From NCBI GenBank assembly GCA_945921515.1, contig CAMEKR010000005.1, positions 1-38,466 of the forward strand: a DNA stretch of 38,466 bases. The letters are read 5' to 3'. Both the position numbers and the translations under genes were made by a program. Below are positions 248-37,996 of this stretch, one piece after another. Every line of letters begins with the position of its first letter. Position 1 is the first letter of the stretch. The notes below the pieces were generated by a model. It worked only from the letters and a program-made list of their open reading frames with translations, was not told where the DNA came from and ran no database searches. The DNA is from an uncultured Clostridia bacterium. GTDB lineage: Bacteria > Bacillota > Clostridia > Oscillospirales > Ruminococcaceae.

Positions 248-1030
248 ATGCAGGAGTTTCAGCTAACCGATATACAGTCCACCGATATAACCGAGTGGAA
301 CTTTGAGCAGATACGTTCATACTTAACACAGGTGCTTGACAGTGGTAAAGAGACGGTTTACACCGATGAAGCCTCAGCAAAGGCGGACAAGAGCGAGCTT
401 ACCCGTGCAAAGAAACTTCTTGAGGACAAGCGTAAGGAGTACAAGGCAAAGTGCCTTGCTCCTTATGAGATTGTCGAGAAGCAGATAAAGACGCTGACCT
501 CGATGCTTGACGAACGAGCTGCGGAGATAACCGCCTCGGTCAATGCATTCGCCGAACAACGCAAACGAGAAAAAGAGCAGGAACTTTATTCGTATTATAT
601 GAAAAAAGCTGCTGACTTGGGAGCTTTCGCCGAGCCGCTATGGAAGCGCATACTCTCTGCGAAATGGCTCAACGCAAGTGCTTCTCAGAAGAAAACGGAG
701 GAAGCAATATTGCTTGCAATAAGCAATGCAAGCGGCGAGTTGGAGCGGATAAGAGCGTTGAAATCACCTTATGTTGACACGCTAATTGAGAACTACATAG
801 GCGGAGCAACTATCGAGGATTGTTTCAAGAAGAATGAGGAACTAACTGCGGCATATGAAAAAGCCGGTTTCGAGGACATTGGCACAGCGAAAAGCGTTGT
901 CCGCAGCGAGATAGCACAGAACGCCTCATCGGACGCGGGAATCACGCTTACGATAAAGGGCGACAAACTACAGTTGGAACAGGTCTTTGACTTCATGCGG
1001 GCTATCGGTGTGGAGTTTGAGATAAAGTAA
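248..1030 (+). CDS. DUF1351-like (phage-associated) protein
   Basis: 260 aa ORF; 'ELTRAKKLLEDKRKEYKAKCLAPYEIVEKQIKTLTSMLDE' resembles DUF1351 proteins found near phage recombination genes. Confidence 0.6.
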   Translation: MQEFQLTDIQSTDITEWNFEQIRSYLTQVLDSGKETVYTDEASAKADKSELTRAKKLLEDKRKEYKAKCLAPYEIVEKQIKTLTSMLDERAAEITASVNAFAEQRKREKEQELYSYYMKKAADLGAFAEPLWKRILSAKWLNASASQKKTEEAILLAISNASGELERIRALKSPYVDTLIENYIGGATIEDCFKKNEELTAAYEKAGFEDIGTAKSVVRSEIAQNASSDAGITLTIKGDKLQLEQVFDFMRAIGVEFEIK

Positions 1031-1705: not shown

Positions 1706-4501
1706 ATGCTCACACCCTCACAACACAAAGCCATAACCACAACCGAGGGCGCAGTGCTGCTTATTGCAGGTCCCGGTACCGGCAAAACATATACTCTTGT
1801 AAAACGCATTGTACATCTTGTTGTTGACAAAGGTATCGGACTCGGTGAGATTGTGGTGGTGACTTTCACACAAAAAGCCGCAAATGAGCTGCTCACGAGA
1901 ATTTCCGATGAGTTTGCTTCACTTGGTCTTGATGTAAACCTTAGTGAAATGTACATAGGAACCTTCCATGCAATTTGCCTTCGGTTACTTAGAGAGAATG
2001 CGGAGCTTTGTCCTGATGGCGTACCGGGCATTTTAGACGCTTTTGAGGCGACCTATATGGTTTGCCGTAACATAGACCTATTTGAAAATCTCGGTGGTTT
2101 TGCAAAGCACTTTCCCGCTACTATGGGCGCTTGGAAACAAGCGGAAGAAATATGCAGATATGTCAGCCGGCTTCGTGAGGAGCTGGCTGATATTCGTGCT
2201 ATGGAGCAATCACCTGACGAGGATATACGCCTGCTTGCGAAGCTCACCAACCGTTACAACGAGCTTTTAGGTAAAAGAAAAGCTATGGATTTTTCCATGA
2301 TACAGACCATGACCTATGACCTGCTGAAAGCAAATCCGCAGGTGCTGGAGCGTATTCAGAACAGCGTGAAATACATAATGGTTGACGAGTATCAGGATAC
2401 CAACTGTATACAGGAAAAACTTATGTTTATGCTTGCCGAAAAGCACGGTAACATCTGCGTTGTGGGCGATGATGATCAGGGAATGTACCGCTTTCGTGGC
2501 GCAACTATCCGCAATATACTGGAGTTTCCGAAAAAATTTCCCGAGGGAAAATGCGAGAAGATTTACCTTGACATAAATTTCCGCTCACAACCCGATATAA
2601 TCCGCTTCTACAGCGATTATATGGAGCATCCGCCGTTTGATTGGGAGAATTATCGCTTTGAAAAACACATTACCGCAGGTCGTTCGGACATAAAAATCGG
2701 CTCTTCGGTGTTCCACTGCAACGGTGAAGAAGAGATATTCCGACTGCTGCAACAAATGAAATCGGATGGCAGGATAACCGACTATAATCAGACGGCATTC
2801 CTGTTCCGTTCGGTTAAGAGCAACGAAGCGTTGGAACTTATGCAGTATCTTGAGGAAAACGGTATTCCGGTATATTCGCCACGCTCAGAGCTTTTCTTTA
2901 TGCGAGATGAAGTGAAACAGCTTATAGGTCTGCTTATCCTGTGCTTTGCAGACTACTTTTCCGACCTCAGAAAGAACAGCTTTATTCACGGTATTTACGA
3001 CATTTTGAGGAATTATTATAAGGAATGTGTCGGTGCGGCTTCGATTTTGGTAAAGGCTGATATGACTCTGCACGATTACATTTGTGAAGAAAGCAAAGCG
3101 ATAAAATCGGCAGACGATAAAACGCTGCTTGATGTGTTCTACAAAATTATATCCTTTGAGCCGTTCAGAACACTTCTTTCTGCTGATTTGAACGATACTG
3201 CGGTAAATGTCCGTGCTGCAAGAAATATTGCTGAAGTCAGTCGAATTATCTCCCGTTTCAGCCGCTTGCATGATATGTACAGGATAACCGAAGCACTACC
3301 CGAACAATTCTTCAATGTATATATGAAATTTCTTTTCATTGATGGTATCGGCGAATACGAGGATAACGCCGAATATGCGCCGCACGGCTGTGTTTCTTTT
3401 ATGACTATACATCAGTCAAAGGGACTGGAATTTCCAATTGTGATTGTCGGTTCGCTTGGAAATTCGCCACGGGCGCAGACCGATCCTCTTATGCTTTCTG
3501 CAGAACTAAAATATTTCAGCAGAGGGCAGTTTGAACCGTACGAGTGCATAAAGCTGTTTGATTTCAGGCGGTTGTATTATACTGCATTTTCCCGTGCAAA
3601 GGATATGCTTATTCTGAATTCAAAAGGAGATTGTCATTACTTTGAAAGAGAGATTGACATACTTCCGGATGCTCGAGATATTCCGTGTAACATTTCTGTA
3701 TCTGCTGTAAAAAAGAATAACTTCAAGCGTGTGTATTCATTTACCTCACACATATCCATTTATGACAGCTGCCCACAGCAATACAAGTATTATAAGGAGC
3801 TTGGCATGGCACAGCATAAAATGCTCCACACATCCATAGGCTCTATTGTCCACGAAACGCTGGAAAGCATGAATAAATATATCATCGGTGGCGGTAATGA
3901 TGTTGATGAGCAGCTTCTGCGGGAATGGTTCAGTATCTGTTGCGGAGAAATTGAAGCCTCAACAGGTTATTCGCTTGATGTGGAGCAAAAAGAAAACGCC
4001 CTGAGTCATGTTCTGTGCTATTACAGGAACAGGGGTGAGGACATTCTTAGCGTTTGGAAAAGCGAAGAGGAAATCAACCTCATCCTACCCGAGTTCATTT
4101 TGCAGGGAATAATCGACCTTATCGAGTACGATAAAGATACGGATACCCTTGAAATAATCGACTTCAAGACCGGACCGAAGCCCGATGTAGAGCACTATCC
4201 CGAAAGTATCGACCATTACCGTAGGCAGCTTGAAATATACGCATATCTCGCCGAAAAGCGTTTTCACAAACCTGTTTCCCGAATGAAGTTGTATTATACA
4301 AGTGTTTTTGAGGGTAATCCCTGGATAGTGTTTGAATATAACAAAGACAATATTGATGGCGCAATTGCAGAACTTACCAAAACGATAAAGAATATTGAAA
4401 GCAGGAACTTTACTGAAAGCTGCCGGAACACATACAGCTGTCACTACTGTGATATGAAGTATTTCTGCAACAAAAAAGAAATCCCGGAGGAATTTAAATG
4501 A
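1706..4501 (+). CDS. UvrD/Rep-type SF1 helicase with C-terminal Cas4/AddB-like PD-(D/E)XK nuclease domain
   Basis: Walker A 'LLIAGPGTGKTYT', motif II 'VDEYQDTN', motif III 'VVGDDDQGMYRFRGA', motif VI 'RRLYYTAFSRAKD'. C-terminus has 'IVHETLES', 'IIDFKTGP', 'RRQLEIYAYLAEK', a Cys in 'YDSCPQQYKYYKEL' and 'CRNTYSCHYCDMKYFC', consistent with an Fe-S nuclease. RBS aggagg upstream. Confidence 0.9.
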   Translation: MLTPSQHKAITTTEGAVLLIAGPGTGKTYTLVKRIVHLVVDKGIGLGEIVVVTFTQKAANELLTRISDEFASLGLDVNLSEMYIGTFHAICLRLLRENAELCPDGVPGILDAFEATYMVCRNIDLFENLGGFAKHFPATMGAWKQAEEICRYVSRLREELADIRAMEQSPDEDIRLLAKLTNRYNELLGKRKAMDFSMIQTMTYDLLKANPQVLERIQNSVKYIMVDEYQDTNCIQEKLMFMLAEKHGNICVVGDDDQGMYRFRGATIRNILEFPKKFPEGKCEKIYLDINFRSQPDIIRFYSDYMEHPPFDWENYRFEKHITAGRSDIKIGSSVFHCNGEEEIFRLLQQMKSDGRITDYNQTAFLFRSVKSNEALELMQYLEENGIPVYSPRSELFFMRDEVKQLIGLLILCFADYFSDLRKNSFIHGIYDILRNYYKECVGAASILVKADMTLHDYICEESKAIKSADDKTLLDVFYKIISFEPFRTLLSADLNDTAVNVRAARNIAEVSRIISRFSRLHDMYRITEALPEQFFNVYMKFLFIDGIGEYEDNAEYAPHGCVSFMTIHQSKGLEFPIVIVGSLGNSPRAQTDPLMLSAELKYFSRGQFEPYECIKLFDFRRLYYTAFSRAKDMLILNSKGDCHYFEREIDILPDARDIPCNISVSAVKKNNFKRVYSFTSHISIYDSCPQQYKYYKELGMAQHKMLHTSIGSIVHETLESMNKYIIGGGNDVDEQLLREWFSICCGEIEASTGYSLDVEQKENALSHVLCYYRNRGEDILSVWKSEEEINLILPEFILQGIIDLIEYDKDTDTLEIIDFKTGPKPDVEHYPESIDHYRRQLEIYAYLAEKRFHKPVSRMKLYYTSVFEGNPWIVFEYNKDNIDGAIAELTKTIKNIESRNFTESCRNTYSCHYCDMKYFCNKKEIPEEFK

Positions 4502-5823
4502 GAAACTGCCTGAACTGTGGAAAAGAATGCGACTTTCTGCTGTGTGATAAATGCAAAGAAGTTGTTGATGTGGAGAATCTTTGTCTGGAGATAAGTCGTT
4601 ATGATACACAAACAGGAGAAAACAAGCTGTGGAATAGTTTTGCCGCCAAGCTACAGAACAAGCGCAATTTTAAGAATGTGTCCTTTGCGTTGGCGGCTGA
4701 TATTCCATCGCCGAGAAGAGAATATGTTCGTCTGAAATGCCTGCTTGGCGGAATATATCTTGGCAAAAGAAGTCACAGCTGGTTGTTTGAGAATGCACCG
4801 AAAATGCTGGGAAGCGACGCACTTTCGCAAGACGAAAAGGAAACTGTGCGCGCAGTTATGCTGTATGCTTATTCGGCTGCTCACGAATACGAAAAAGCCG
4901 AAAATATTGCAAACGAAATAGGCATACCGAAGCAGGACTTTACCGCTGTTCATTTAGCGGAATATCTTATAAAAACCCGTCGATATGTAAAGGCGGAGGA
5001 TATCATCGGAAAAGCTATTACCGAAGGCGTTTCCGATGAAATAACCGATGAGTTGAAAAAGTTGATTGAAAGAATCGCTTACTACAGTAACGGCCAAGAC
5101 TACCTTCCTGCAAGCAGAGAGGACAAGAAAAAGTATATTGAGTTTATAAACACTCTGGGCTTTGCCGTTCAAATGCCTGTATACAAAAAAGACAGTGTGC
5201 CGGAAAAGCTGACGAGAGCGGAGTATCCCGAGTTTACGATCGAAAGAAACGCAGGCTTTAACAGCTTTGTTGCTTATGATGTCGAAACAACCGGCTTGAG
5301 TCATTTCATAGATGAAATAATCGAAATAGGTGCAGTAAGGGTTGTGAACGGAGAAATAACCGAAAGGTTCAGCACATTTGTACAGACATATAAAAAAGGT
5401 ATTTCCGAGCAAACGACCGAGCTTACCGGAATAACAAAGGATATGATCAAGTCTGCACCGATGATGTGGGATGCTTTCAACTATTTCGCGGATTTTATCG
5501 GTGAGGATATCGTTATCGGCTATAACAACACTGCGTTTGATAATAAGTTTCTGATGCGAGCCGGAAGATATGCAAGGCGTACGCTCCAAAACAGGTTTTT
5601 TGATGTGAAAACCTATGCGAAAGAAAACGCCGGTAAACTTCAATGTGCGGGGTTTAGTCTTAGTGGGCTTTCCGAGTATCTTGATATAGAAAATCCTTCG
5701 GCACACAGGGCACTTGCCGATGCGGAAACTACCGCAAAGGTATATCTTGCTTTACTGGATCGCTTTGGCACAGAAAAAACACATACCGGATTTGATGAAC
5801 AGCTTGAAGAGGAGTGGGTATAA
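4498..5823 (+). CDS. N-terminal zinc-ribbon-like motif plus DEDDh 3'-5' exonuclease (DnaQ/PolC-epsilon family)
   Basis: 'FVAYDVETTGLSHFIDEIIEIGAVRVVNGEI' (ExoI), 'VIGYNNTAFDNKFL' (ExoII), 'HRALADAETTAKV' (ExoIII). N-terminal 'CLNCGKECDFLLCDKCK'. ATGA overlap with upstream helicase. Confidence 0.88.
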   Translation: MRNCLNCGKECDFLLCDKCKEVVDVENLCLEISRYDTQTGENKLWNSFAAKLQNKRNFKNVSFALAADIPSPRREYVRLKCLLGGIYLGKRSHSWLFENAPKMLGSDALSQDEKETVRAVMLYAYSAAHEYEKAENIANEIGIPKQDFTAVHLAEYLIKTRRYVKAEDIIGKAITEGVSDEITDELKKLIERIAYYSNGQDYLPASREDKKKYIEFINTLGFAVQMPVYKKDSVPEKLTRAEYPEFTIERNAGFNSFVAYDVETTGLSHFIDEIIEIGAVRVVNGEITERFSTFVQTYKKGISEQTTELTGITKDMIKSAPMMWDAFNYFADFIGEDIVIGYNNTAFDNKFLMRAGRYARRTLQNRFFDVKTYAKENAGKLQCAGFSLSGLSEYLDIENPSAHRALADAETTAKVYLALLDRFGTEKTHTGFDEQLEEEWV

Positions 5824-35660: not shown

Positions 35661-36839
35661 ATGGAACTTAGTTCTCATCAGATAGTTATGCTGATAACTA
35701 TTGCGCTTTATCTCGTCGGAATGGTAGTGATAGGCGTATTATGTTCAAGAAAAACCGATAATGTCGGCGACTTTTATCTCGGCGGCAGAAAACTCGGACC
35801 GTTCGTAACCGCAATGAGCGCAGAAGCGTCGGATATGAGCGGATGGCTGCTTATGGGCTTGCCCGGTGTTGCATATGCATACGGTATTGCAGAGGCGAGC
35901 TGGACAGCTATAGGACTTGCGGTAGGTACATACATCAACTGGCTTGTTGTGTCAAAGAGACTCAGAAAGTATTCTCAGGCCTGCGGTGCAATAACTCTGC
36001 CCGAGTTTTTCACAAACAGACACAGAGATAAAAAGAAGATACTGACACTTATAGCGGCACTTATTATTATTGTCTTCTTCATTCCTTACACAGGTTCGGG
36101 CTTTGCGGCTTGCGGAAAGCTGTTTGAGAGTCTTTTCGGCGTTGATTATCATTTAGCTATGATAGTAAGTGCTATTGTAATCATTTCTTATACCACTATC
36201 GGTGGCTTCCTCGCCGCAAGTACAACAGACTTTATACAGAGTATTATCATGACTATAGCTCTTATAGTTGTTGTAATATTCGGTATAAATATGGCAGGCG
36301 GTATCGTAGAAGTAATGAACAACGCATACTCTATGCCAGGTTATTTCTCGGTAACACATTCGTTTGATGTTCTGAACAAAACAACGAGTGAGTACGGAAC
36401 GCTCAATATATTCTCAACTCTTGCATGGGGACTCGGTTATTTCGGTATGCCTCATGTTCTGCTAAGATTTATGGCAATAAGCGACAGCAAGAAGCTCAAG
36501 ACTTCAAGAAGAGTAGCAACCGTATGGGTAGTTATCTCTCTTGCAGTAGCAACATTTATAGGCGTTGTTGGTCTTGCTATGAGTCAGAAGGGCGTTATCG
36601 ATCCTCTGTATGACGGCGGCGACCCCGAGACTATAATTGTTGCGATAGCAAATCTGCTTGCTTCATTCGGTCCTCTTACCGCAATTGTCGGAGGCCTTAT
36701 CATTGCAGGTATTCTTGCTTCGACTATGTCAACTGCAGATTCTCAGCTGCTTGCGGCTTCCTCAGCAGTATCAGAAAACTTGTTCAGCCAGGTATTCAAA
36801 ATGGCACCTCGCTATTCTGAGTGGGTAAAGTGGGACTAA
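35661..36839 (+). pseudogene. putP: sodium/proline symporter PutP, N-terminal portion, interrupted by insertion element
   Basis: SSS-family protein 'NVGDFYLGGRKLGPFVTAMSAEASDMSGWLLMGLPGVAYAYG'; SSS homology stops at 'SENLFSQVFK', then MAPRYSEWVKWD* read from the element end. Remainder of putP at 37589-37996. Confidence 0.9.
36795..36802. repeat. left target-site duplication TTCAAAAT
   Basis: 7/8 match to TTCAAAAA at 37589-37596 flanking the TIR-bounded element. Confidence 0.7.
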
Positions 36840-37588
36840 TAAATAGTGTTAAATCTCAAATTACCTGTTTCAAGATATATCATTGAAATAAAATAATTGA
36901 TGTTGCGAAATTCTTTTGCACGGCGTTTAATCTCTTGGATGCGGCTATTAATTCCATCAGTTAATCCTGCTGTTAGTTTGCTTTTGAAGTATTGTAGCAC
37001 ACCGGTGTAATGAGATTTTATCATTTTGGCAAATTTCTTTATCGGTTCTAATCGAGAACGAACAGCCCAAGATAGCCATTTTCTAATAGCGGTTTCGGCA
37101 ACTTGCACATCAAAAATATTTCTGTATATATCTTGAAATGTCAGTTTCATTTGATATGCTTTTGCAAGATTCTTATTTTCTTTGGATACCAAATAATCAT
37201 AGGAAAGAAAAGAGGTATTTTAATGATTCAAATTAACAAGAGAAGTATAGGTATGTGTATATTGTTATCCATCATAACGTGCGGAATATACGGTATTTAT
37301 TGGATGTATTTGCTTGTGAAAAATACACGTTCCATACAGAAAAACACTGACAATTGTAAAGGTGAAATGCTTTGTTTGATTTTTGTTCCATTCTACTCTC
37401 TGTATTGGTGGTATACAAGAGGTGAAAAAGTTAGACAGGGATTTGCTGAACATGATTACAATGCAACAGGTGGCGGAGTGGCATATCTAGTGCTTGCAAT
37501 TTTTGGATTAAGTATTGTTTCTATGGCTATCATGCAAAGCGATTTTAATTCATTAAAATCAGAAACCCACTCAGAACAGCGAAGCACC
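36803..37588. mobile_element. 786 bp non-autonomous ISL3-type element carrying a transposase remnant and a DUF4234-like cargo gene
   Basis: Left TIR 36803-36826 GGCACCTCGCTATTCTGAGTGGGT; right TIR 37565-37588, reverse complement GGTGCTTCGCTGTTCTGAGTGGGT (20/24 identical). Flanked by near-identical 8 bp. Excision restores the putP reading frame. Confidence 0.88.
36836..37192 (-). pseudogene. C-terminal remnant of ISL3-family transposase
   Basis: 'NKNLAKAYQMKLTFQDIYR...AIRKWLSWAVRSRLEPIKKFAKMIKSHYTGVLQYFKSKLTAGLTDGINSRIQEIKRRAKEFRNINYFISMIYLETGNL' matches the C-terminal end of DDE ISL3 transposases; the catalytic N-terminal majority is absent. Confidence 0.88.
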
Positions 37589-37996
37589 TTCAAAAACAAG
37601 GTTAACGAAAAGACGGCTATGCTTATTGCAAGAATAACCGTTATAGTGATAGCTGTTGTAGGCGTTGTTATTGCCTGGGATAAGAACAGCTCGGTATTCC
37701 AGATAGTATCGTTTGCGTGGGCAGGCTTCGGTGCGGCATTCGGTCCTGTAATGCTGATGTCGCTGTTCTGGAAGCGTACAACAAAGTGGGGAGCGTTTGC
37801 AGGTATCCTTGCCGGCGGCGTTATGGTATTCGTATGGAAGTTCCTTGTAAGACCGCTCGGCGGACTTCTGGATATCTACGAGCTTTTGCCCGCATTTATA
37901 GTAGCTCTTGTTGCAATAATAGTTGTTTCGCTGCTTGACAAGAAGCCTTCCGCTGAAATATGCGATGAGTTTGATTCTATTAAGACAATGGAATAA
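37223..37996 (+). CDS. DUF4234-like membrane protein fused in frame to the C-terminal part of PutP
   Basis: ATG at 37223 with agaggt upstream; 'KRSIGMCILLSIITCGIYGIYWMYLLVKNTRSI' (DUF4234-like). After the element end: 'FKNKVNEKTAMLIARITVIVIAVVGVVIAWDKNSSVFQIVSFAWAGFGAAFGPVMLMSLFWKRTTKWGAFAGILAGG' (PutP C-terminus). Confidence 0.85.
   Translation: MIQINKRSIGMCILLSIITCGIYGIYWMYLLVKNTRSIQKNTDNCKGEMLCLIFVPFYSLYWWYTRGEKVRQGFAEHDYNATGGGVAYLVLAIFGLSIVSMAIMQSDFNSLKSETHSEQRSTFKNKVNEKTAMLIARITVIVIAVVGVVIAWDKNSSVFQIVSFAWAGFGAAFGPVMLMSLFWKRTTKWGAFAGILAGGVMVFVWKFLVRPLGGLLDIYELLPAFIVALVAIIVVSLLDKKPSAEICDEFDSIKTME

Follow-up and report, generated by a model that had tools for sequence, protein, structure and literature searches.

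Insertion sequences of the ISL3 family are about 1.4 kb long and carry an ISL3 transposase gene between 24-bp ends starting with GGCTCTTCGC, and they generate 8-bp duplications. ISArsp7, with the ends GGCTCTTCGCGGTTGGTGGTGAAT and an 8-bp duplication, is an example (PMC6305408). Some members carry passenger genes: ISPpu12 contains a lipoprotein signal peptidase-like gene and a heavy-metal antiporter gene (PMC4133298), and ISPst2, with a length of 2,985 bp, an ArsR regulator and a permease (PMC6305408). Mobile insertion cassettes (MICs) consist of IS ends and a passenger without a transposase (PMC3129680, PMC6542083, PMC5444012). They include MIC231 of Bacillus cereus, cited as such in PMC6542083, and the qnrS2 cassette of pAC3 (PMC5444012). 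MITEs are short (about 30–300 bp), multicopy and free of genes (PMC4133298).

We analyzed a 38,466-bp stretch of DNA from an uncultured Clostridia bacterium of the Ruminococcaceae (contig CAMEKR010000005.1), referred to as the window. Positions 36803–37588 form a 786-bp segment with an ISL3-type inverted repeat at each end. We interpret it as an internally deleted ISL3 insertion sequence with a passenger gene, either a mobile insertion cassette or the relic of a transporter IS, that was inserted into a putP-like gene, and assign this reading a probability of roughly 0.87. The terminal repeats, the 8-bp duplication and the type of transposase are those of ISL3 insertion sequences such as ISArsp7. 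The element differs from them in its smaller size, in a transposase reduced to its last 28%, a complete DDE transposase being absent, and in the DUF4234 gene aboard. As in ISPpu12 and ISPst2, ISL3 ends enclose genes unrelated to transposition, membrane proteins included; those two elements, however, keep their transposase gene and have passengers of other families. A transporter IS combines a complete transposase with a passenger, whereas the transposase is truncated here. With MIC231 and the qnrS2 cassette the element shares IS-type ends round a passenger and the lack of a functional transposase inside. Unlike them it retains a 3' remnant of the transposase gene, and its movement is putative. 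With one copy and no helper IS in an assembly of 213 contigs, where absence is weak evidence, it is MIC-like rather than a proven MIC. MIC231 itself goes with IS231, not with ISL3. A MITE is ruled out by the length of 786 bp, the single copy and the gene carried. The element is a fresh example of a known element type, not a new type.

Results

The coordinates of all features are given in Table 1.

Table 1. Features of the element, of its target gene and of the related element L005. Positions refer to the window except for the last two lines, which refer to the L005 stretch.
Feature	Positions	Strand	Remarks
5' part of putP-like sodium:solute symporter gene	35661–36839	+	Pfam SSF PF00474, E 2.7e-67; from ORF list
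Left 8-bp target-site duplication	36795–36802	.	TTCAAAAT; 7/8 match to right copy
IRR (terminal inverted repeat, transposase 3' end side)	36803–36826	+	GGCACCTCGCTATTCTGAGTGGGT; 20/24 to ISL3 consensus
Last 118 aa of ISL3 transposase	36839–37192	-	PF01610, NF033550; 73% to genome G409, 69% to a viral contig
DUF4234 passenger, part inside the element (122 codons)	37223–37588	+	PF14018, E 3e-22; 64% to G050 gene
IRL (terminal inverted repeat, transposase 5' side)	37565–37588	-	GGTGCTTCGCTGTTCTGAGTGGGT; 19/24 to ISL3 consensus
Right 8-bp target-site duplication	37589–37596	.	TTCAAAAA; 7/8 match to left copy
3' part of putP	37589–37996	+	Joined to 5' part: 513 aa, gapless against L121
Possible chimeric ORF, 257 aa	37223–37996	+	DUF4234, repeat-encoded THSEQRST, PutP C-terminal 135 aa; both domains detected
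L005 divergent zinc-ribbon membrane-protein gene, 115 aa	567–914	-	Between left end and transposase
L005 second zinc-ribbon frame	449–580	-	Overlaps stop of first gene; open through left repeat

Ends and target site

To judge from their sequences, both ends of the 786-bp element are ISL3 ends. The consensus used for comparison, GGCTCTTCGCTATTTTGTGTGGGT, was derived from 18 ends belonging to ISL3 elements that had been found independently. A scan of the window with it (~77,000 positions) returned the two element ends with 20 and 19 matches out of 24, and the runner-up with 15. The repeats are identical to each other at 20 of 24 positions, but this alone is within chance, as the best inverted pairs in the shuffled 38-kb window reach 19–20. 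The significance of the repeats therefore lies in the match of both ends to an independent consensus, far above background, and not in the identity of the pair. The GG....TCGC repeat type of the ISL3 family is present at both ends. For the flanking 8-mers, agreement at seven of eight positions is reached by local random 8-mers with a probability of 0.0018. An earlier sequence-only reading had proposed 24-bp imperfect inverted repeats bounding 786 bp and an 8-bp duplication with one mismatch, and both are borne out here. The G+C content of the element is 29–36%, compared to mostly 39–49% for putP.

Excision of the element together with one 8-mer in silico resulted in an open 513-aa frame of a PutP-type symporter. 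An alignment with the uninterrupted protein L121 from the same genus (genome G014) has no gap at the junction and 82% identity on each side. The joined protein is also in register with L128 and L129 from other families. Conservation does not differ between the two halves of PutP, and no stop codons interrupt the C-terminal one. Since the 3' part of putP is undecayed, the insertion is probably young. The insert is absent from the putP orthologues of G014, G046 and G051, so that the conserved presence in orthologues named by the sequence-only reading as a possible refutation is not observed. In the present arrangement the 5' ORF encodes 392 aa and terminates 12 codons into the element. Of the ten hydrophobic segments of the joined PutP (simple hydropathy), four are missing from its product. 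With the break lying after residue 378, PutP has very probably lost its function.

Transposase remnant

Homology to ISL3 transposases starts at about position 37203; the N-terminal two thirds are absent. The remnant matches positions 140–240 of 240 of the Pfam model DDE_Tnp_ISL3 (PF01610) with an E-value of 8e-26, above the cut-off, and positions 267–369 of 370 of NCBIfam NF033550, the first 266 model positions missing. The NF033550 score of 85 bits is below the cut-off of 180 bits because the protein is truncated. Such a remnant presumably cannot be an active transposase. As only the C-terminal 28% is present, the element is an ISL3 derivative and not an autonomous member of the family. The sequence-only reading had recognized the remnant on the minus strand correctly and had put its length slightly too low, at ~110 aa.

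DUF4234 passenger

The DUF4234 gene occupies the place of the transposase 5' part of related elements, faces away from the transposase and ends at the repeat. It starts with an ATG at position 37223, preceded by a ribosome-binding-like site (AGAGGT), and scores 78.9 bits against PF14018 (cut-off 25.3). Among 396 genomes of the order the best relative is 64% identical; this relative forms the N-terminal portion of an ABC permease from another family (G050). The domain is kept up to the C-terminal DFN/ELN motif of its free-standing relatives. In most free-standing DUF4234 proteins of the order, the C-terminus lies a few residues beyond the point that corresponds to the gene-repeat junction in the window, so that nearly the whole passenger gene is present, minus its stop codon.

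No stop codon closes the passenger frame inside the element. Reading goes on through the repeat and, still in frame, as far as position 37996; the ORF 37103–37996 holds both DUF4234 and SSF matches. Since none of the frames of the repeat contains a stop in this direction, the read-through is unsurprising. It may be simple chance, the odds of sharing the frame of putP being roughly one in three. The divergent, DUF4234-like small membrane-protein gene with its own ribosome-binding site noted in the sequence-only reading was recovered as DUF4234 with AGAGGT, but its read-through into putP had been missed.

The Ka/Ks ratio of the passenger is low, but with saturated synonymous sites it is uninformative on selection since capture. 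No relative of the passenger was detected among viral contigs at the sensitivity used. A promoter-like site, TTGAAA-16-TATGCT with a TG (37133–37160, plus strand; extended -10 TGATATGCT), lies in the remnant and points towards the passenger; in the promoter scan, the number of sites was not above that of shuffled sequence. The source genome holds a second, distant (27%) DUF4234-like stretch in a 330-aa frame (G000:C137:580–882). DUF4234 serves more than once as the N-terminal membrane module of proteins unrelated to each other: it is fused to a BPD_transp_2 ABC permease in G050 (L070:199–1839) and to a NAGPA phosphodiester glycosidase in G077 (L071:1333–2961). A search for repeat remnants at these two fusion joints found none. 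In the literature searched, DUF4234 is named only for an Enterococcus biofilm screen and not as an IS passenger.

Related ISL3 elements

Using a related transposase, we searched 399 genomes of the phylum and looked for inverted pairs around the matches. Ends such as the consensus given above were found. A listing of the catalytic-E motif across the relatives gave no matches. Several of the elements have exact 8-bp duplications: L042 (ACTTGAAA), L051 (AATAAGGA), L054 (ATAAACAA) and L066 (TAAGAAAT). Full-length ISL3 elements with matching ends, for which the sequence-only reading had proposed a search, thus do exist, these four and L057 among them. The ISL3 origin of the window element follows from the match of its ends to full-length ISL3 elements with 8-bp duplications and from the ISL3 remnant. 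Most full-length relatives with both ends defined span 1.33–1.45 kb and are too short for a passenger, which is therefore not general in the subfamily. Frame-by-frame reading of three longer relatives (L058, L060, L063) showed no convincing passenger.

The closest element, L005, was found in another species of the same genus (L005:449–1961, corresponding to G409:C20:6045–7557). It is bounded by GGTGCTTCGCTGATTTGAGTGGGT and AGCTCTTCGCTATTCTGACAGGGT. Its transposase is 73% identical to the window remnant. Both elements have similar ends and the order IRL, divergent small membrane-protein gene, transposase and IRR, and in both the last passenger frame is open through the repeat. L005 differs in its length of 1513 bp, in a transposase damaged internally rather than missing its N-terminal two thirds, and in its zinc-ribbon passengers. 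As the two sets of passengers come from different families, a passenger-bearing ISL3 lineage is not proven. A third zinc-ribbon frame of L005 (1862–1960, minus strand) enters from the right repeat.

The transposase on a viral contig (L030, 8.4 kb), 69% identical to the remnant, has an intact right end and no recognizable left end. Besides the ISL3 transposase, this contig contains phage-like genes and a group II intron-type reverse transcriptase (positions of note L030:1–1374 and 4407–5387). A further TIR-like match in G409, at C14:29003, falls within the coding sequence of an ABC permease and was taken as chance. Single TIR-like matches in other genomes of the genus had no partner end.

Copies and helper

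The source assembly (213 contigs, 98.9% complete) contains one copy of the element. No complete or other ISL3 transposase was found in it, although assembly gaps at multicopy insertion sequences make this absence weak evidence. The further copies whose absence would, by the sequence-only reading, count against it did not turn up: 59 relative genomes gave nothing beyond one 43-base stretch, the element DNA had no match in phages and plasmids, and a scan of the viral collection for the terminal repeats returned nothing. Among 71 genomes of the genus, a pair of these ends was found only in G409. Movement in trans is a reasonable inference, but with a single copy and no helper in the assembly it stays a putative one.

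Discussion

From the ends, the duplication and the target frame restored by excision we infer a transposition event and propose the following course. A near-complete chromosomal DUF4234 gene would have been captured between IRL and the transposase, losing only its stop codon. An ISL3 transposase, provided in trans or by the then-complete element, would have bound both 24-bp ends and moved them, with everything between, into putP, leaving the 8-bp duplication. As a by-product, the passenger frame would continue into the C-terminal membrane segments of PutP. A DUF4234-PutP chimera may be made, and any function of it would be hypothetical. The absence of a second copy and of a complete ISL3 transposase, and hence of a helper or a sign of movement, speaks against this course, as do the mismatch in the duplication and the different families of the passengers in the window element and L005. 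What we retain of the sequence-only reading is an element of ISL3 descent inside putP, its ends intact, its transposase gutted and a passenger aboard; that it can be mobilized in trans is kept as a possibility.

Two versions of the preferred reading differ in when the transposase was lost. The element may have lacked its transposase before insertion. It would then be a genuine mobile insertion cassette that an ISL3 transposase missing from the assembly moved in trans. The intact, ISL3-like ends, the loss of the catalytic part and the otherwise undecayed target bring this version close to an even chance, against which stand the missing helper and the lack of other copies. Alternatively, a complete DUF4234-bearing ISL3 element could have entered putP and lost the 5' part of its transposase in place, which would make it a decaying transporter IS and not a mobile cassette. 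L005, with its passengers and a more complete (also internally damaged) transposase between similar ends, makes a transporter-IS ancestor plausible, and the single copy and the mismatch in the duplication fit as well. The two PutP halves, each 82% identical and without stops, leave little time for decay, however, and we see this version as possible at somewhat less than even odds. Overall, in-place loss from a complete passenger-bearing element and mobilization in trans appear about equally possible.

Independent insertion of an ISL3 fragment and a DUF4234 gene into putP, with repeats arising by chance, is barely credible: a 20/24 inverted pair can well turn up in 38 kb of shuffled sequence, but both ends resemble ISL3 ends much more closely than does any other window position, coincide exactly with the breakpoints of putP and have matching 8-mers next to them. 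The element might also be a fusion device whose outward frame is kept stop-free, each insertion adding a small membrane domain to the protein that is cut and so giving chimeras such as DUF4234-PutP. The stop-free passage through the repeat in both the window passenger and the L005 zinc-ribbon frame would suit this idea, as would the natural fusions in G050 and G077. It is nevertheless very improbable, since the repeat, read that way, lacks stops in all frames, an in-frame junction with putP has a chance of one third, the two natural fusion joints bear no trace of the repeat and only two elements are known. We also consider it unlikely that an ISL3 lineage of this genus repeatedly captures small zinc-ribbon- or DUF4234-type membrane-protein genes between left end and transposase and, with the frame of the last gene extending outward across the repeat, creates chimeric membrane proteins in the genes it enters.

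The chief use of the internally deleted, passenger-bearing ISL3 element lies in accounting for the split putP of the source genome and in setting right an annotation in which a strange DUF4234-symporter fusion would otherwise appear. With intact ends, a nearly undecayed target and the space of the transposase taken over, it represents a clean, probably young case of an insertion sequence turning into a gene carrier. If more elements of the type of L005 and the window element are found, they would reveal how genes for small membrane proteins spread among gut Clostridia.
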